A stretch of 64,000 nt of DNA from the NCBI GenBank assembly GCA_023266575.1, contig JAHFPV010000009.1, positions 89,506-153,505 of the forward strand. The letters are read 5' to 3'. Origin of the DNA: Sphingobium sp. (GTDB lineage Bacteria; Pseudomonadota; Alphaproteobacteria; Sphingomonadales; Sphingomonadaceae). Of this stretch, positions 12,909 to 22,186 are shown in pieces (within the stretch, counting starts at the first letter, position 1; each line of letters starts with the position of its first letter). The translations under genes and the position numbers were made by a program. The notes under the pieces were generated by a model that made no database searches, was not told the DNA's origin, and was given only the letters and a program-made list of their open reading frames with translations.

Positions 12909-13931
12909 ATGCGCAGGCTTTCCCCCATTTCCATCGGTCCGCTGACGATCGACATGCCCGTCGTGCTGGCGCCGATGACCGGCGTCACTGACATGCCGTT
13001 CCGCACGCTGGTGCGCCGCTATGGCTGCGGCCTCAACGTGACCGAGATGATTGCGACCGCCGCGATGATCCGCGAGACGCGCCAGTCGCTGCAAAAGGCC
13101 GCCTGGCATCCGCTGGAGGAACCCGTGTCGATGCAGCTGGCAGGCTGCTCGCCGGCCGAAATGGCCGATGCGGCGAAGCTGAATGCGGATCGCGGCGCGG
13201 CTATCATCGACATCAATATGGGCTGCCCGGTCAAGAAGGTGGTCAATGGCGACGCGGGCAGCGCGCTGATGCGCGATCTGCCGCTGGCGGCTGCGCTGAT
13301 CAAGGCTACGGTCGAGGCGGTGGATGTGCCTGTGACCGTTAAGATGCGGATGGGCTGGGACCATAGCAGCCTCAATGCGCCCGAATTGGCGCATATTGCC
13401 GAAGATCTGGGCGCGAAGCTGATCACTGTTCACGGTCGCACCCGGTGCCAAATGTATAAGGGGTCGGCGGACTGGGGCTTCATCCGCTCGGTGAAGGATG
13501 CGGTCAAGTTGCCGGTGATCGCCAATGGCGACATCTGCTCGATCGAGGATGCCGACATGGCGCTGGAACAGAGCGGTGCGGACGGGGTGATGATCGGGCG
13601 CGGTGCCTATGGCCGTCCCTGGCTGATCAGTCAGGTCATGGCCTGGCTGGACCGGGGCGAACGCGTGCCGGACCCGTCGCTGGAAGAGCAATATCGTGTG
13701 ATCATAGAGCATTATAAGGCAATGCTCGATCATTATGATAATTATACCGGGGTCAATATGGCCCGCAAGCATATCGGCTGGTACACCAAAGGGCTGACCG
13801 GATCGGCCGAGTTCCGCCATGCGGTCAATCAGGAGCCGGATGCGGACAAGGTGCTGGACATGCTGGCTCGCTTCTACGAACCGCTGATTGCGGGTGAGGT
13901 CGAGGCGGTGGACGCGCGCCAGGCGGCATGA
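12909..13931 (+). CDS. dusB: tRNA-dihydrouridine synthase DusB (NifR3)
   Basis: 340 aa from [15 protein letters not shown]. This FMN TIM-barrel enzyme reduces specific uridines in the tRNA D-loop. Visible are [13 protein letters not shown] at the N-terminus, [10 protein letters not shown] with the catalytic Cys in GCP, the [18 protein letters not shown] flavin/RNA region, and [12 protein letters not shown]. The gene was named nifR3 in alphaproteobacteria because it heads the ntrBC operon, exactly as here (ATGA overlap with ntrB). Confidence 0.95.
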
Positions 13932-15037
13932 GCGGCACGCTGCCGCTGGTGCCGCCGCTACGGATGCAGCAGGACGGGCCGTCGCTGCCCGAACAGATGA
14001 CCGCGCTGCCGGTGGCGACTTTGGTGGTCCGGCCCGACAACAGCATTGCCGAAGCCAATGTCCGGGCCGAAACTCTGCTCAACATGGCCCGTTCCGCCAT
14101 TGTCGGCAGCGATGTCGCGCGCACCATCCGCATTGCCGAAGCAGGCGCGCGCTTCGACATCTGGCACAGCCAGAAGCCGATCGCGGCCTATGACATCAAG
14201 GTTCATGCCGGGCGTACCGCCGAAATGGAGGTTGACCTGATGATCGCGCCGATCGTCGATCATGATGGCTGGCGGGTCGTGTCGCTCCATGCGCAAAGCC
14301 AGGCGCGCAAGATCGGTCATCGCGGCACGTCCGGCGGCGCACGCTCCGCTATGGGCGCGGCGGCAATATTGGCGCATGAGATCAAAAATCCGCTGTCGGG
14401 CATACGCGGCGCGGCGCAGTTGCTGGAAGGCGGGCAGGGCGGACGCGATGCCGCGCTGACCCAGCTGATCTGTAACGAGGTGGATCGGATCGCCGCGCTG
14501 ATCGACCGGATGCAGGATTTCACCACCGATCGGACGCTGGAATGTCACCCCGGCAATATCTATCCGCTGATCGACAGGGCGGCCGATATTGCGGCAGCGG
14601 GCTTTGCCAAACATGTCCGTATTATAAAGCGTTACGACCCGTCCCTGCCATTTGCCAACATCAATGATGATGCGCTGGTGCAGGTGATGATCAACCTGCT
14701 CAAAAATGCGGCGGAGGCATTGGAGCATGTCGCCAAGCCCCGCATCCGCGTCGAAACCGCCTTCCGCCATGGCGTGTCCGTCATGGTCGGCGGTGGCAAG
14801 GGCAGCGCGGTGCTGCCGATCGAGATTGTCGTGGTCGACAATGGGCCGGGTGTGCCGGAACATATTCTGGACCATCTCTTCAATCCCTTCATCACCGGCA
14901 AGCGCGACGGGCAGGGGCTGGGGCTGGCGCTGGTGGACAAGCTGGTCCGCGACATGAACGGATTTGTACAATATGCGCGCGATGCGGAGGCGGGCGAATC
15001 CACCTTCCGCATATTGCTGCCGATGGGGATGGGGTGA
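13928..15037 (+). CDS. ntrB: Nitrogen regulation histidine kinase NtrB
   Basis: 369-aa cytoplasmic sensor kinase. An N-terminal PAS-like domain ([19 protein letters not shown]) is followed by the dimerisation/phosphoacceptor helix with [20 protein letters not shown] (His near residue 153) and a HATPase_c domain with an N-box ([11 protein letters not shown]), G1 VVDNGPGVP and G2 [11 protein letters not shown]. No membrane segments. It phosphorylates NtrC under nitrogen limitation, normally under PII protein control. It overlaps dusB by 4 bp and ntrC by 1 bp. Confidence 0.95.
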
Positions 15038-16482
15038 TGGCCGCGACGGGAACCGTGCTGGTGGTCGATGATGATCCCGCCATCTGCGTGGTGGTGGGCG
15101 AAGCGCTGCGGCGGCAGGGGCACAAGGTCAAGACCGCCGGGTCGATCCGCGAGCGTGCCGCGCTGATGGACAGTTTTACGCCCGACGTGCTGATCACCGA
15201 CGTCATGTTGCCCGATGGCGACGGACTGGAGGGGGTGGCCGACATCATCGCCGCCCGCCCGGCGCTGAGCGTCATCATATTGTCGGCGCAGAACACGCTG
15301 AACACCGCGATCCGCGCGACCGAGAAGGGCGCGTTTGAATATCTGCCCAAGCCCTTCGACCTTAACGAACTGACCCGCGCCGTGTCCGATGCGCTTGGCA
15401 CGAGGCTTGCGGCCAATGGAGAGGTGGAGGAGGGCGCTCTGCCCCATGACGGGCTGCCGCTGGTCGGGCGTTCGCCCGCGATGCAGGAAGTCTATCGTAC
15501 TATCGCCCGCGTCCTGTCCAACGACCTGTCGATCCTGGTGCTGGGCGAATCCGGCACGGGCAAGGAACTGGTCGCCGAAGCGATCCACAGTTTGGGCCAG
15601 CGCCGTACCAAGCCATTTGTGGCGATCAACATGGCCGCCATTCCGCGCGAACTGATCGAAGCAGAACTGTTTGGTTATGAAAAGGGCGCCTTCACCGGCG
15701 CCCATGCCCGCACCGCCGGTAAATTCGAGCAGGCGCAGGGCGGGACACTCTTCCTCGACGAAATTGGCGACATGCCGATGGAGGCGCAGACCCGTCTGCT
15801 GCGGGTGCTGCAATCGGGCGAGGTCACCACCGTGGGTGGCTCCAAACCTGTTCGGGTCAATGTCCGCATCATCGCCGCGACCAACAAGCATCTGCCCCAG
15901 TTGATCGAGGAAAACCGGTTCCGGCAGGATCTTTATTATCGCCTGAATGTCGTGCCGATCGCCCTGCCTGCGCTGCGCGAACGACGCGAGGATGTGATCT
16001 TGCTCGCCCGCCATTTTCTGGAACGCGCTGCGCAGGAAGGGCTGCCGCGCAAGACGCTGGCGGACGACGCGACCCAGTTGCTGATGGTCTATCACTGGCC
16101 CGGCAATGTTCGCGAATTGCAGAATATGATGCAGCGCCTGGCCGTGCTGAGCCGTGAAAATGTGATCACCGGCGAAATCCTGCGCAACATGCTGCCGATG
16201 GATGCGGTCCCGGCCGACTATGCCGCACCCGCCGATCATCTGGCCCATGCCGTGCGCGATTGGGCGCGGCGGCAACTGGGCGTTGGCATCGGTCAGCCCA
16301 ATCGCAACCTGCATGACGATCTGCTGGCGGTTATCGAGCCGATCCTGTTGCAGGAGGTGCTGGCCACTGTCGATGGCAACCAGATCCGCGCCGCCGGGCT
16401 GCTCGGCATCAACCGCAATACGCTGCGCAAGAAACTGACCGATTATGGGCTGGACCCGCTGCAATTGCGCCTGGCCGATTGA
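15037..16482 (+). CDS. ntrC: Nitrogen regulation response regulator NtrC
   Basis: 481 aa from ATG 15037 (a GTG three bases upstream is also possible), overlapping the ntrB stop. The receiver domain has Asp55 ([12 protein letters not shown]). The sigma-54 AAA+ domain has Walker A GESGTGKE, an intact GAFTGA loop ([20 protein letters not shown]) and Walker [15 protein letters not shown] Fis-type HTH ([20 protein letters not shown]) ends the protein. It therefore has every element needed to activate sigma-54 promoters of nitrogen-assimilation genes, unlike the NtrX downstream. Confidence 0.96.
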
Positions 16483-16591
16483 TTGAGATCAGCGCTACGC
16501 GGGACGAACCGACGGTCTGCATCGACCAGTAACTGCAGATACGACAAATACTGTGTTTGATCGGGCACGGGGTTGTTGTAACAAAGCCACT

Positions 16592-18847
16592 ATGAGCGGC
16601 GCGACTACAGTTTCCCGGCGGGTGCCGGCATGGCGGAAGCATCTGCCGCCTTTCCTGCGCCGACGGCGTCTGGCTGCCCTGGTCGAAGCGGTGACGCTGG
16701 GGCTGTTCGTGGGCATGGCGGTGCTGACCTACCGGCTCGTATCCAGTAGTGGCCAGTCCTACGCGCTGCTGACCCCGCCGATCGTCGCGCTGCTGCTGGT
16801 CGCGAATCTCGTCCCTGCCATCGCCTTGCTGGTGCTGTTGGGGCGGCGGGTCGCCAAGCGCCGTGCCGCGGCTTCGGCCATCGGCAGCGATGGTCAGTTG
16901 CATGTCCGGCTGGTCGCCATCTTCTCGATCGTCGCCAGCGTCCCCATGCTGCTGGTGGTGATCTTCGCGTCCCTGCTGTTTCAATATGGCGTGCAATTCT
17001 GGTTTTCCGACAGCGCGCGCGGGATGCTCCAGAATGCCAGCGATCTGGCGCGCGGCTATTATGAGCAGAATCTGCGCGAGGTCGGCGACGAGACGGTCAC
17101 CATGGCCAGCGATCTGCGCGACTATCTGGCCCAGTCGAAGGTCAACAGCCCGCGCTTTGCCGAGGGCTTCATCTATCAGGTCGTGACCCGCAAGCTTAAC
17201 CGATCGGCCATCATTGAAGTCGGCAAGGATGGCGTCGCCCGCACCGCCGCCACGGTCGATCCGGAAAACCGCCCCGCCGCGCAAATGCTGACCGCCGCTG
17301 TGGTCAAGCGGCTGAATGCGGGCGAAAATGTCGTCGTCCAGGCCAAGCCGCAGCAGATCGAGGCGGTGACTTTGCTGTATCCGGGATCGAAAATCTATCT
17401 CTACGCCACCCGCGATTCGGGGTCATGGGCGTTCAGCAATGTTGAGCGCGCGCAGAAGGTGATCGCCGATTATGATGTGTTTTCGGCGCAATCGCGGGCG
17501 TTGCAGCTCCGCTTCAACATCGCCCTGTTTGTGGGATCGCTGCTGCTGGTCGGCATCGCCGTCTATATCGCGTTGGCCGTTGCCGACTGGATGGTCCGCC
17601 CGGTCAACGAACTGGTGACGGCGGCGCGGCGGATCACCGCGGGCGACCTGTCGGCGCGCGTGACCAGTCCGCTGGCCCGTGACGAGATTGGTACGCTCGC
17701 CTCCGCCTTCAACCGCATGACCCAAAGGCTGGAGGCGCAGACCGGTGCGCTGGTCGCCGCCAACAGCCAGCTGGACGAACGCCGCGCCTTTATCGAGGCG
17801 ATTCTGTCGGGCGTGACGGCTGGCGTACTGTCTGTGGATCGCAAGGGCGTGATACAGTTGCTCAACCGCTCCGCCGCCGCCATTTTGGTGGAGGAGGGCG
17901 ACGATCCGGTCGGCCGCCTGCTGACCGACGTATCGACCGAACTGGCCGACCTGATCGCATCGGATGAGAGCGCGGGCATCGTGCAGGTCCGCGCTCATGG
18001 CGACCTGCGGACGCTGGCGGTCAAGGTGTCGGACGATGCGTCGGGCCATATTCTGACCTTCGATGATATCACTCAGCAATTGTCGGATCAGCGCCGCGCC
18101 GCCTGGTCCGATGTCGCCCGCCGGATCGCGCATGAGATCAAGAACCCGCTGACCCCGATCCAGCTGGCCGCCGAACGGCTCCAGCGCCGCTATGCCGACG
18201 AAATCACCAGCGACCGACCGACCTTTACCCGGCTGACCGGCACGATCGTGCGACAGGTGGGCGACCTGCGCCGCATCGTCGACGAATTCTCCTCCTTCGC
18301 GCGGATGCCAAAGCCTGTGTTCCGGCGCGAGACGGTGGGCGACATTGCCCGCCACGCACTGTTCCTGCACGAGGTCGCGCATCCCGATATCCGCTTTGAC
18401 TATCAGGCTGACACGCCAGATCTGGAACTGGTCTGCGACCGGCGACAATTGGGGCAGGCTTTGACGAATATCGTCAAAAATGCGGTGGAAGCCATTGAAC
18501 CCAAGCCGGAACCGGCAGAGGGCGAACCGCGCGGTCATGTGTCCATGCGGGTTGCCCAGATGGGCGACGATCTGGTCATCACCGTCCGCGATGATGGCAT
18601 CGGCCTGCCCCCGGAACGGGACCGAATATTGGAACCTTATATGACCACGCGGACCAAGGGGACGGGTCTGGGCCTCGCCATCGTCAAGAAGATTGTCGAG
18701 GAGCATCTGGGGGAAATTCGCTTCGATGACGCGCAGGGTGGCGGCGCATCGGTAACATTGCGTTTTGCTGCGGCGGCGCTGGAAAAATTGGAAGAAGGGC
18801 AGGTTATTGCCATGCCCAAAGGAAAAGTGACGGCCAATGGCGCTTGA
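16592..18847 (+). CDS. ntrY: Membrane histidine kinase NtrY
   Basis: 751 aa from MSGATTVSRRVPAWRK. The N-terminal ~100 residues contain hydrophobic spans, and two more spans bracket a ~190-residue periplasmic region (span near IVASVPMLLVVIFASLLF and span near LFVGSLLLVGIAVYIALAV). HAMP, PAS and kinase domains follow: phosphoacceptor [21 protein letters not shown]-box NIVKNAVEAI, and G-boxes VRDDGIGLPP and GTGLGLAIVKKIV. NtrY is the sensor of the second nitrogen/redox two-component pair of alphaproteobacteria. It lies 109 bp after ntrC and overlaps ntrX by 11 bp. Confidence 0.95.
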   Translation: MSGATTVSRRVPAWRKHLPPFLRRRRLAALVEAVTLGLFVGMAVLTYRLVSSSGQSYALLTPPIVALLLVANLVPAIALLVLLGRRVAKRRAAASAIGSDGQLHVRLVAIFSIVASVPMLLVVIFASLLFQYGVQFWFSDSARGMLQNASDLARGYYEQNLREVGDETVTMASDLRDYLAQSKVNSPRFAEGFIYQVVTRKLNRSAIIEVGKDGVARTAATVDPENRPAAQMLTAAVVKRLNAGENVVVQAKPQQIEAVTLLYPGSKIYLYATRDSGSWAFSNVERAQKVIADYDVFSAQSRALQLRFNIALFVGSLLLVGIAVYIALAVADWMVRPVNELVTAARRITAGDLSARVTSPLARDEIGTLASAFNRMTQRLEAQTGALVAANSQLDERRAFIEAILSGVTAGVLSVDRKGVIQLLNRSAAAILVEEGDDPVGRLLTDVSTELADLIASDESAGIVQVRAHGDLRTLAVKVSDDASGHILTFDDITQQLSDQRRAAWSDVARRIAHEIKNPLTPIQLAAERLQRRYADEITSDRPTFTRLTGTIVRQVGDLRRIVDEFSSFARMPKPVFRRETVGDIARHALFLHEVAHPDIRFDYQADTPDLELVCDRRQLGQALTNIVKNAVEAIEPKPEPAEGEPRGHVSMRVAQMGDDLVITVRDDGIGLPPERDRILEPYMTTRTKGTGLGLAIVKKIVEEHLGEIRFDDAQGGGASVTLRFAAAALEKLEEGQVIAMPKGKVTANGA

Positions 18848-20207
18848 TATTCTGATAGTCGACGATGAAGAGGATATTCGCGATCTGGTCGCGGGTGTGC
18901 TGGAAGATGAGGGCTTTACGACCCGCACCGCCGCCAATAGCGACAGTGCGATAGAGGCGCTGGATTCGCGCCGTCCTTCGCTCGTCCTGCTCGACGTCTG
19001 GTTGCAGGGATCGCGCATGGATGGCCTGGAGCTGCTGGACGAGATCAAGCGGCGCGATCCGACCATTCCCGTGCTGATGATATCCGGCCATGGCAATATC
19101 GACACAGCCGTCGCCGCGATCCGCAAGGGAGCCGCCGACTTCATCGAAAAGCCGTTCGAGGCCGACCGGCTGATCCATCTGGTATCGCGCGCGACGGAAA
19201 CGGAACGGCTGCGGCGTGAAAATCAGGTGCTGCGTGCCCGGTTCGGGCAGGATGATGAGCTGACCGGTACATCGGCGGCGGTCAATGGTGTGCGCGCCAC
19301 GATCAAGAAGGTCGCCGGCACTGGCAGCCGCGTCCTCATTTCCGGCCCGGCGGGCGTAGGCAAGGAAGTCGCCGCGCGGATGCTGCACAGCTGGAGCGGC
19401 CGCGCCGATTCCCCCTTCATCATCGTCGCCGCCGCCCGCATGGACCCGGATCGGGTCGAGGAGGAACTTTTCGGTCTGGAGGACCAGAGCGGTCTGGTGC
19501 GGCCCGGCTATCTGGAACAGGCGCATGGCGGCACCCTCTATATCGACGAAGTCGCCGACATGCCGATCACGACGCAGGGCAAGATATTGCGCGTCCTGAC
19601 CGACCAGAGCTTCACCCGCGTCGGCGGCCAGCGCCAGGTCAAGGTCGATGTCCGCGTCATCTCCTCGACCGCGCGCGACCTGTCGACCGAGATTGAGGAA
19701 CGGCGCTTCCGCGAGGATCTTTTCTATCGGCTCAACGTCGTGCCGCTGGTCATCCCGCCCTTGTCCGAAAGGCGCGACGATATTCCCCCGCTGGTCGAAC
19801 ATTATCTCGCCCGTTTCGCCGCCGAACGCCGCGTGCCGCCGCCAGATATGGCGAGTGACGCCATGGCGGCGCTGCAAGCCAATGAATGGCCCGGTAATGT
19901 CCGCCAGCTGCGCAATGTCATCGAACGCACGATGATTTTGGCACCGGGTGATCGCATCGGCCGGATCGAGCTGGACATGCTGCCCGCTGAACTGACCAGT
20001 AGCGGCGGCGGTGAGGGCATGGGCCAGTCCGCGATCATGGGCGCGCCGCTGCGGGAGGCGCGGGAGAGTTTCGAGCGGGAATATCTGCGCATCCAGATCC
20101 GCCGTTTTTCGGGCAATATTTCGCGCACGGCGACCTTCATCGGCATGGAACGGTCCGCATTGCACCGCAAACTCAAGCTGCTGGGGATCACCGACGGCAA
20201 GGAATAG
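18837..20207 (+). CDS. ntrX: Response regulator NtrX, lacking the GAFTGA loop
   Basis: 456 aa. The receiver domain has phospho-acceptor Asp53 (VLLDVWLQGSRMDGLELL). The AAA+ domain has Walker A GPAGVGKE (~170-177) and Walker B GGTLYIDEVADMP (~231-243). A C-terminal Fis HTH (ISRTATFIGMERSALHRKLK) binds DNA. In the L1 loop, where NtrC reads EKGAFTGAH, NtrX reads LFGLEDQSGLVRPGYLEQ (211-228), so the sigma-54-contacting GAFTGA motif is absent. This implies sigma-54-independent action. The gene overlaps ntrY and precedes hfq. Confidence 0.95.
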   Translation: MALDILIVDDEEDIRDLVAGVLEDEGFTTRTAANSDSAIEALDSRRPSLVLLDVWLQGSRMDGLELLDEIKRRDPTIPVLMISGHGNIDTAVAAIRKGAADFIEKPFEADRLIHLVSRATETERLRRENQVLRARFGQDDELTGTSAAVNGVRATIKKVAGTGSRVLISGPAGVGKEVAARMLHSWSGRADSPFIIVAAARMDPDRVEEELFGLEDQSGLVRPGYLEQAHGGTLYIDEVADMPITTQGKILRVLTDQSFTRVGGQRQVKVDVRVISSTARDLSTEIEERRFREDLFYRLNVVPLVIPPLSERRDDIPPLVEHYLARFAAERRVPPPDMASDAMAALQANEWPGNVRQLRNVIERTMILAPGDRIGRIELDMLPAELTSSGGGEGMGQSAIMGAPLREARESFEREYLRIQIRRFSGNISRTATFIGMERSALHRKLKLLGITDGKE

Positions 20208-20362: not shown

Positions 20363-20845
20363 ATGGCCGATAAAGTGAACAACCTTCAGGACATTTTCCT
20401 GAACAGCCTGCGCAAGAGCAAGACCCCGGTGACCATGTTTCTGGTCAAGGGCGTGAAGCTGCAAGGCATCATCACCTGGTTCGACAATTTTTCCGTGCTG
20501 CTGCGCCGCGATGGCCAGTCCCAGCTGGTGTACAAGCACGCCATCTCCACCGTGATGCCCGCCCAGTCGATGGACCTGACCGACCTGCGCAAGGCGAGCG
20601 ACGGCAATGGCAAGGCCAAGCTGTTGCAGGAAATCTTCCTGACCGCCGTCCGCAAATCCGGCAGCCCGGTGACCATGTTCCTGGTCAATGGCGTGATGCT
20701 TCAGGGCGAAATCGCCGCTTTTGACCTGTTCTGCATGTTGCTGGAGCGCGATGGCATGGTCCAGCTGGTCTATAAGCACGCCATTTCCACGGTCCAGCCG
20801 CTCCATTCGCTCGACCTGTCGGGCGAGAATGAACAGAACGACTGA
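20363..20845 (+). CDS. hfq: RNA chaperone Hfq with two tandem Sm domains
   Basis: 160 aa, twice the normal length. Residues ~7-66 and ~87-146 are each a complete Hfq Sm fold: [20 protein letters not shown]...YKHAISTV and [20 protein letters not shown]...YKHAISTV. Both keep the Sm2 YKHA signature. They differ at RNA-contact positions: domain 1 keeps VKLQG, the DNF pocket and RRDG, whereas domain 2 has VMLQG, DLF and ERDG. Double-domain Hfq is known from Zymomonas mobilis and other sphingomonads. Three chains would give a six-domain ring. It follows ntrYX as in other alphaproteobacteria, with AAAGGA ~12 nt before ATG. Confidence 0.96.
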
Positions 20846-20890
20846 TCCTGCCCGGAGCCTATTTCCGCCTCCTTTGAATTGAGCGTTTGG

Positions 20891-20943
20891 AAAGGCCGTA
20901 TCGAGGCGTCATGCAGTTTGTATGATCGTTCGATGCGGCCTTT
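20891..20943. promoter_or_regulatory. Extended hairpin between hfq and glsA
   Basis: A 14-bp stem with one G-T pair (20891-20904 with 20930-20943) encloses a second 6-bp stem (20909-20914 with 20920-20925). No run of T follows on either strand (+ reads TTTCGGCTTT; on the minus strand the bases after the stem read CCAAACG), so it is not a classic terminator. It could be an hfq 3' structure, a glsA leader or a degenerate repeat. Confidence 0.45.
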
Positions 20944-20974
20944 CGGCTTTGCGCAACAGGGTTAGGGCAAAGGC

Positions 20975-21919
20975 ATGAGTCTCGATCTTCCAGCTGTCAT
21001 AGCCGACATTACTGCCAGCATGGCGTCGATGGAGGATCGCGGGCAGGTGGCGACCTATATCCCCGAACTCGCGACCGTCGATCCGGCGCAATTCGGCATC
21101 GCCATCGTCACCGCCGATGGCCGGGTGCTGACCGGGGGCGACGCTGATACCGGCTTTTCGATCCAGTCGGTGTCCAAGGTGTTTGCGCTCACCCTGGCGC
21201 TGGGCAAGGTCGGCGACCAGTTGTGGGACCGGGTGGGGCGCGAGCCGTCGGGCAATGCGTTCAATTCGATCACCCAGCTGGAACATGAGCAGGGCATCCC
21301 GCGCAATCCCTTCATCAATGCGGGCGCGATCGTCGTGGCCGACGTCAATCTGGGCGGGCATGAGCCGCGCGTCGCCATTGGCGAGATGCTGCGCTTCGTA
21401 CGCTATCTGGCTGGCGATGACAGCATCACCATCAACGAAGCGGTCGCCGTGTCGGAAACCGCGACGGGCTTTCGCAACATGGCGCTCGCCAACTATATGC
21501 GCGCCTTCAACAATGTGCGGCACCCCGCCGAACTGGTGCTGGGCAGCTACTTCCATCAATGCGCAATCGAGATGAGCTGTCGGCAACTGGCGCTGGCCGG
21601 ACGCTATCTGATGCTCGACGGGCGGCATCCGGGCGGGGGGCGCGTGATCTCTCCGCGCCGGGCGCGCCGCATCAACGCGCTAATGCTCACCTGCGGACAT
21701 TATGACGCATCGGGCGACTTCGCCTTCCGCGTCGGCATCCCCGGCAAGTCGGGCGTGGGCGGGGGCATATTGGCGATCGTGCCGGGCCGCGCTGCCATCG
21801 CGGTCTGGTCGCCGGGCCTGAACGCCAGCGGCAATAGCTGCCTTGGCACGCTGGCGCTGGAGGAACTCGCCCGCCGTACCGGCTGGTCGGTGTTCAGCCC
21901 GCCGGACGAGGGCGACTGA
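20975..21919 (+). CDS. glsA: Glutaminase
   Basis: 314-aa serine-dependent glutaminase (GlsA/YbaS/YneH family), which hydrolyses glutamine to glutamate and ammonia. The catalytic Ser-x-x-Lys is in [16 protein letters not shown]; also present are [18 protein letters not shown], a later Tyr/Asn region (ANYMRAFNN) and GKSGVGGGI near the C-terminus. The size is standard. Its position after ntrBC-ntrYX-hfq is metabolically consistent with nitrogen regulation, but no NtrC-type site is obvious upstream. A purine-rich AGGG lies 7 nt before ATG. Confidence 0.95.
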
Positions 21920-21987
21920 AGCATATTATCGGATAAGTCTGGAGCCTTTCCTGCGGGCGGCAGTATCGCCGCGCTGGCAGGAAAATC

Positions 21988-22062
21988 TGGCTCCCCGAGT
22001 AGGATTCGAACCTACGGCCATTCGATTAACAGTCGAATGCTCTACCGCTGAGCTATCGGGGA
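21988..22062 (-). tRNA. tRNA-Asn (anticodon GTT)
   Basis: On the minus strand, a 75-nt cloverleaf: acceptor TCCCCGA with TCGGGGA, D-arm GCTCAGCGGTAGAGC, anticodon stem ATTCGA/TCGAAT around CTGTTAA (anticodon GTT), T-arm GTAGGTTCGAATCCTAC, discriminator G and encoded CCA. Confidence 0.96.
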
Positions 22063-22186
22063 GCAGCCCGACTTCCGCCGGGCAGGCCGCGCCTATAGCA
22101 GCGGCTTTTAAGAATTGGCAAGCGCTAATCTGATGATTTTTTTGGCTCCCCGTCAGGCCGGGCTTTGGCCCCGTTAAAGCCCCCGT

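Follow-up and report, generated by a model that had tools for sequence, protein, structure and literature searches.

Double Hfq of Sphingomonadaceae: two unequal Sm domains in one chain, of single origin among sampled genomes, and a probable three-chain ring

Hfq normally consists of six identical subunits, so a single rim or face site cannot be removed alone. A gene in a 64,000-nucleotide stretch of Sphingobium sp. DNA (hereafter the window) encodes one chain with two Sm domains that have grown unalike, and it raises the question of what ring such chains build and what each half contributes to it. Residue positions in the text follow E. coli Hfq numbering, and published work is cited from the passages available of each paper. 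The features concerned are these:

13928..20207, plus strand: ntrB, ntrC, ntrY and ntrX, upstream of hfq; NtrY and NtrX identified by Pfam, NtrB and NtrC by reading frame and position alone
20363..20845, plus strand: hfq, double-Sm form, 160 aa, with an ATG start, a TGA stop and matches in Pfam and NCBIfam
20384..20572, plus strand: Sm/Hfq domain 1 (D1), chain residues 8-70, with proximal, distal and rim residues as in single-domain relatives, plus N28K
20447..20449, plus strand: codon of chain residue Lys29 (E. coli N28), Lys in D1 of 185/185 double loci and Asn in 76/76 single-domain loci
20561..20623, plus strand: linker, chain residues 67-87, 21 aa, with a predicted short helix at residues 73-79
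20624..20806, plus strand: Sm/Hfq domain 2 (D2), rim partly eroded (RKSG, E47, net +1), with K31M, Q41L, A37 and A38, and Q63; remaining face contacts kept
20696..20698, plus strand: codon of chain residue Met112 (E. coli K31), Met in D2 of 181/185 double loci and Lys in 0
20807..20842, plus strand: acidic C-terminal tail ending GENEQND

PF17209 is found twice in the 160-aa protein (190.4 bits, cut-off 27) and TIGR02383 in two stretches (182.4 bits, cut-off 61.7), while NF010691, the NCBIfam model of double Hfq, covers residues 1-160 (312.5 bits, cut-off 270). The two Sm/Hfq domains that a preliminary description had read in this frame are thus real, and the motifs it listed stand as written (YKHA in both halves, VKLQG against VMLQG, DNF against DLF and RRDG against ERDG). 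Both halves carry the YKH of the Sm2 motif and the proximal residues Q8/F42. Instead of the canonical single Sm domain per chain, two domains share one reading frame, and both PF17209 matches of this genome (99.96% complete, 26 contigs) are the halves of this gene, the only hfq found there. By its named relatives, the window belongs in or beside Sphingobium (S. limneticum, 96% identical). The halves of the window chain are 68% identical over 57 core positions and the same arrangement recurs in 185 loci, hence it is not a product of chance. Among the 164 distinct doubles of our main set, the linker is 17-24 aa long and the last 10 residues are net-negative in every case.

The hflX gene lies within the fetched hfq flank in 100/100 loci of one set and in 205/208 overall, and the three loci without it (L180, L188, L241) end within 350 bases after hfq. 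It is absent from the 64-kb window, where hfq is followed (20846-22062) by a glutaminase gene at 20975-21919 and a tRNA-Asn gene at 21988-22062 on the minus strand; the hflX of this genome sits on a different contig (C9), which points to a rearrangement or an assembly join directly behind hfq. A 96-aa open reading frame at 21843-22133 on the plus strand overlaps the tRNA-Asn gene on the opposite strand and probably encodes no protein.

Double Hfq as such had already been described in Zymomonas mobilis, as the preliminary description noted: the protein ZMO0347 has two Sm-like domains, which are common to six other Sphingomonadales species, and the 2010 paper raises the question of a three-chain assembly (PMC2877685). 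In a Burkholderia paper, Novosphingobium aromaticivorans is named among species with two hfq-like copies (PMC3474761); in light of the named Novosphingobium loci among our doubles, the two copies could well be this fusion. A sample of the order gave an Hfq match in 390/396 genomes, and those with two matches all belong to the window's family except one, G001, where the one copy fetched is a 91-aa frame with a single domain. Within a family sample, 146/149 genomes matched, 125 with the double form and 21 with single-domain Hfq only (counted from rows). In a sample of the class, the NF010691 cut-off is passed by 4/289 genomes, namely the four listed from the window's family, and the rest of the 237 matching genomes fall below it. 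Restriction to one family within the Alphaproteobacteria, which is our own and not a curated mark of double Hfq, therefore holds in the sample.

The counts that follow rest on 185 double loci (184 distinct proteins); the main-set figure of 165 loci counts the window twice and stands for 164 distinct ones. Known duplicate loci from one genome were removed before counting, and a locus with D1 split between two frames (L261) and one at a contig end (L241) are excluded from the 185. The figure of 76 for singles counts loci rather than genomes, and some of these loci share a genome (L087 with L088, probably L246); L095, a single whose reading stops early, was retained unchanged. L087 and L088 are identical single-domain hfq frames of one genome (G682); on a contig of 2.88 Mb, one lies about 51 kb in from the start and the other about 21 kb short of the end, which may reflect a circular chromosome with an untrimmed overlap.

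A tree built from NtrX and NtrY (123 rows: 95 double, 22 single, 6 outgroup) places the 95 doubles in one clade, with the single-domain members of the family as a basal grade; L050 and L051, with short NtrX, were left out of it, and four further loci have no NtrX. In a second tree (63 rows: 38 doubles, 19 singles, 6 outgroup; IQ-TREE) SH-aLRT support for the double clade is 100 and its sister is the single L075; 20/63 rows are less than half filled, many at ~38%, since they are represented by NtrX alone. A tree of 83 domains, built on few columns, resolves D1 and D2 as one clade each (support 81 and 98). We conclude that, among the sampled genomes, the double form arose once and within one family, and the simplest reading of the sequences is one tandem duplication followed by divergence. 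Independent origins and secondary loss of D2 were both rejected, with the doubles forming one clade and the singles lying basal to it; that the singles keep N28 in 76/76 loci also speaks against their being doubles stripped of D2. Gene conversion between the halves was likewise dismissed: within-chain nucleotide identity averages 0.65 and peaks at 0.77, with no sign of recent homogenisation.

That the two halves are unequal, as proposed from the window alone, proves to be a property of the whole clade, visible in the 185 double loci. D1 has its own fixed change, N28K, which the preliminary description had passed over: Lys28 is present in 185/185 loci together with Lys or Arg at position 31 (185/185), while single-domain relatives have N28 and K31 in 76/76. 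D2 keeps N28 in 185/185 loci and has at position 31 Met in 181, Ala in two, Leu in one, Ser in one and Lys in none, along with Q63 in 181/185 and Leu at position 41 in 157/185. Beyond this, its faces are largely intact. The proximal residues Q8, F42, Y55, K56 and H57 and the distal residues F25, G29, V30, L32, Q33, Q52 and T61 are each kept in 96-100% of the 185 loci (Q8, K56 and H57 in 184, 185 and 185). The expectation that proximal and distal RNA sites would be three-fold rather than six-fold is not supported by this comparison, in which one residue per face differs (K31 and Q41). Similarly, the loss of a "DNF pocket" in D2 held for its middle residue, E. coli Q41, which is gone, and not for D40 and F42, which are still present.

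The asymmetry falls mainly on the lateral rim, as seen on alignment of both halves with sphingomonad and E. coli Hfq, the comparison first suggested for this locus. Measured against the 43 core positions that 90% or more of singles conserve, D2 (164 loci) is eroded at 16 (9, 13, 16, 17, 31, 37, 38, 39, 41, 44, 47, 48, 51, 54, 59 and 63) and D1 (165 loci) at four (17, 28, 54 and 59). The lateral patch is given as R16, R17, R19 and K47 in the RydC-Hfq paper, which also describes a lateral U-U site at positions 13, 16, 17 and 39 (PMC4337610). Net charge at 16, 17, 19 and 47 is +4 in 76/76 singles and in 165/165 main-set D1. In D2 of the main set it averages -0.07, and over the 185 doubles it ranges from -3 to +4, with 12/185 at +4 and the window at +1; position 47 can alternatively be aligned one residue later, which would place D2 rim charges about one unit higher. 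The rim Arg reported as lost in D2 (ERDG) does occupy the K47 position within this patch, but helix 1 is altered too: E. coli R16 R17 E18 R19 is replaced in the window by RKSK in the first half and by RKSG in the second. The window's D2 retains R16 and K17, and position 16 is still Arg in 129/185 second halves, which weighs against the alternating ring proposed below. In E. coli, R16A nearly abolishes sRNA-mRNA chimeras, and K31A is milder for expression, with chimeras down about four-fold (PMC12262471).

Part of this asymmetry is ancient, judging by how it is distributed over the branches: D1 Lys28 and a D2 without Lys31 appear to go back to the base of the clade. Early-branching doubles (L049, L053, L060, L065 and L071) already carry K31M, Q41L and Q63 in D2 and N28K in D1, and four of them have a D2 rim of +4 and the fifth, L071, of +2. 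Most later branches have a lower D2 rim charge, often zero or less, with L061 (+4) and L167 (+3) as exceptions; several forks among these branches are weakly supported. As the early doubles are mostly at +4, and 12/185 doubles in all, rim loss was neither part of the original fusion nor universal. The face changes thus look like changes of the stem, and the decay of the rim like a later and uneven process. We hypothesize that K28 of D1 replaces K31 of D2 across the interface between them.

Could D2 be a dispensable, decaying appendage to a normal hexamer built from D1 alone? Mean pairwise identity is 0.89 for D1 and 0.75 for D2, a ~2.4-fold divergence of D2 over 4000 sampled pairs; much of its rim is gone, and in one genus seven loci carry a heavily altered D2, all as an appendage would be expected to behave. 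However, dN/dS is 0.11 in D1 and 0.23 in D2 (3106 of 13366 pairs, those of moderate dS), which shows purifying selection on both halves, and an appendage would hardly keep Q8, K56 and H57 in nearly every locus. Further to that, no loss of D2 was seen, the sampled singles of the family being a basal grade, and three of the seven altered loci have H57 missing from D1 but present in D2. We therefore regard a D1-only hexamer as quite improbable. The seven loci (L097 and L255-L260; seven genomes of one genus, g13) have both halves strongly altered, with Gly38 and Arg31 in D1, and three of them have YKQ for YKH in D1 and keep FKH in D2.

A different way back to an ordinary ring would be release of single-domain Hfq, by an internal start, a frameshift or cleavage, and its mixing into rings; the preliminary description had set this against its own ring of three chains. 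In the window, a weak AAGG motif does precede an internal TTG where D2 starts, and L261 has its D1 broken across two frames, perhaps through a sequencing error. Across the main set, however, no conserved internal start was found: a Shine-Dalgarno-like motif precedes any internal start in 13/165 loci (164 distinct) and an ATG in 1/165, and in each of the 185 loci counted the two halves share a frame. Production of single-domain Hfq from an internal start or a frameshift was rejected as not conserved, and the release of single domains overall is very improbable.

AlphaFold2 predicts for the window protein two Sm folds and a linker with a short helix (pLDDT 89.8, pTM 0.85), and for a relative, L108, a model with a low-confidence N-terminus (pLDDT 88.9, pTM 0.77). 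Such pTM values stand for a confident relative placement of the halves in a single chain and are not proof of their placement in a ring; by our own estimate, independently oriented halves would give a pTM near 0.5. The closest solved structure by Foldseek is Caulobacter Hfq (6gwk), one chain per half, with 80% identity to D1 and an rmsd of 0.8 over 66 columns. Of the 50 matches listed by Foldseek and the 50 by VIA-align, each is an Hfq chain that covers roughly one domain, for VIA-align mostly residues 4-75 of the model; a fused two-Sm chain is not among these matches listed, which excludes nothing.

These single-chain models, taken with the sequence comparison, make a ring of three chains the most likely assembly. 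An alternative is that six chains form two stacked homomeric rings, one all-D1 and one all-D2, with twelve Sm domains in total; the complete Sm fold of each half, and the fact that each half forms its own clade, as specialised homomeric rings would, agree with it. On the other hand, the linker of 17-24 residues suits a ring neighbour, because the 15-residue tail of Caulobacter Hfq already reaches the neighbouring protomer (PMC6561178), and the confident D1-D2 placement (pTM 0.85 and 0.77) is as for neighbours in one ring. Neither point is decisive, and stacked rings seem unlikely to us. We favour a single ring closed by three chains; with much of the rim of D2 lost and most of its inner RNA-binding residues kept, this ring probably alternates two kinds of subunit, and from the sequences it is expected to be near six-fold on its faces and three-fold on its rim.

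The tails can be viewed in the same light. In Caulobacter Hfq, tail residue E75 touches S39 and R49 on the adjacent protomer, where the acidic tip also lies against R18/K19 (PMC6561178), which correspond to E. coli positions 37, 47, 16 and 17. These are kept in nearly all D1, while over the 185 D2 copies T37 is found in 3, Arg or Lys at 47 in 22, Lys or Arg at 17 in 84 and R16 in 129. In seven loci, all from one genus, the tail is 2-5 aa long, and no other locus has one of 8 aa or less; their D1 rim falls below +4 in 4/7, compared to 0/178 of the others. The pairing of a short tail with a reduced D1 rim fits tail docking, and as these loci are one related group it comes close to a single event. 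Docking of the linker on the D2 rim was considered and rejected. Contrasts on 94 doubles gave r=-0.35 between D2 rim charge and the charge of the whole linker, but the correlation sits in the last nine linker residues (r=-0.55) and is absent from the first twelve, the tail-like part (r=-0.02); it is read as a probable local charge balance beside helix 1. Between D2 rim and C-terminal tail charge, contrasts gave r=0.10 (raw 0.39).

We suggest that the protein is probably a covalent Hfq dimer that arose once, three chains of which close one alternating six-Sm ring that serves as an ordinary sRNA-mRNA matchmaker. Its history would begin with an in-frame tandem duplication of hfq in an ancestor within Sphingomonadaceae (GTDB sense), in which the tail of half 1 became the linker. 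Three chains would then form one ring of six Sm domains with halves 1 and 2 alternating. U-rich 3' ends would enter a proximal pore of six Q8/F42/K56/H57 sets, three of them without the Q41-type contact, and A-R-N stretches would bind a distal face on which half 1 alone provides Lys31 and also provides the extra Lys28. Its annealing rim would have three full basic patches, all from half 1, on each of which the acidic half-2 tail of the preceding chain is expected to dock, as between Caulobacter neighbours; the tail next to D2 would in a three-chain ring be the linker. In Sphingopyxis granuli TFA, the sRNA SuhB depends on Hfq (PMC6563040), Sphingopyxis being a double-Hfq genus (L209, L210), and an hfq insertion in Zymomonas lowers inhibitor tolerance (PMC2877685). 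From these roles, and from the effects of R16A and K31A in E. coli, we expect three full rim patches to suffice in sphingomonads.

A bolder form of this reading, which we put forward tentatively and hold to be doubtful, is a covalently locked bacterial Sm hetero-ring. In it, the distal Lys of D2 would have been given up and a Lys of D1 gained three residues away, early and permanently. The distal face would then use two types of pocket to read a composite repeat of six nucleotides, and annealing would have mainly three rim sites. If true, the clade would supply an order of events, face first and rim later, as well as a genus with reciprocal decay of the halves, and a tractable parallel to the origin of eukaryotic Sm/Lsm hetero-rings. 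In any event, an orthodox half joined to a rim-poor half across a large clade is a natural test of how many rim patches, lysines and tails a ring needs, and would be a bacterial case of the step from a homomeric to a heteromeric Sm ring.

The architecture itself is real, conserved and already described. Its clade-wide inequality of halves was not found in the literature searched, in the passages available and with most subscription papers outside its scope, and so appears to be undescribed there. In basic layout, nothing separates the window protein from ZMO0347 and the family model NF010691 (PRK14091, 176 positions), which have the same two-domain architecture. Caulobacter crescentus Hfq (6gwk), by contrast, has one Sm domain per chain, six chains and six identical rims (PMC6561178). 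E. coli Hfq shares the fold, with a core identity of 60% to D1 and 54% to D2, but differs in its single domain, in having N28 and K31 in every subunit and in its long C-terminal tail. Eukaryotic Sm/Lsm hetero-rings hold diverged Sm paralogues in fixed places, as separate chains, with seven subunits and no fusion. They are mentioned in the Zymomonas Hfq paper (PMC2877685), and the ring proposed here for double Hfq, known from sequence and single-chain models, would resemble them in having diverged Sm copies in fixed places.
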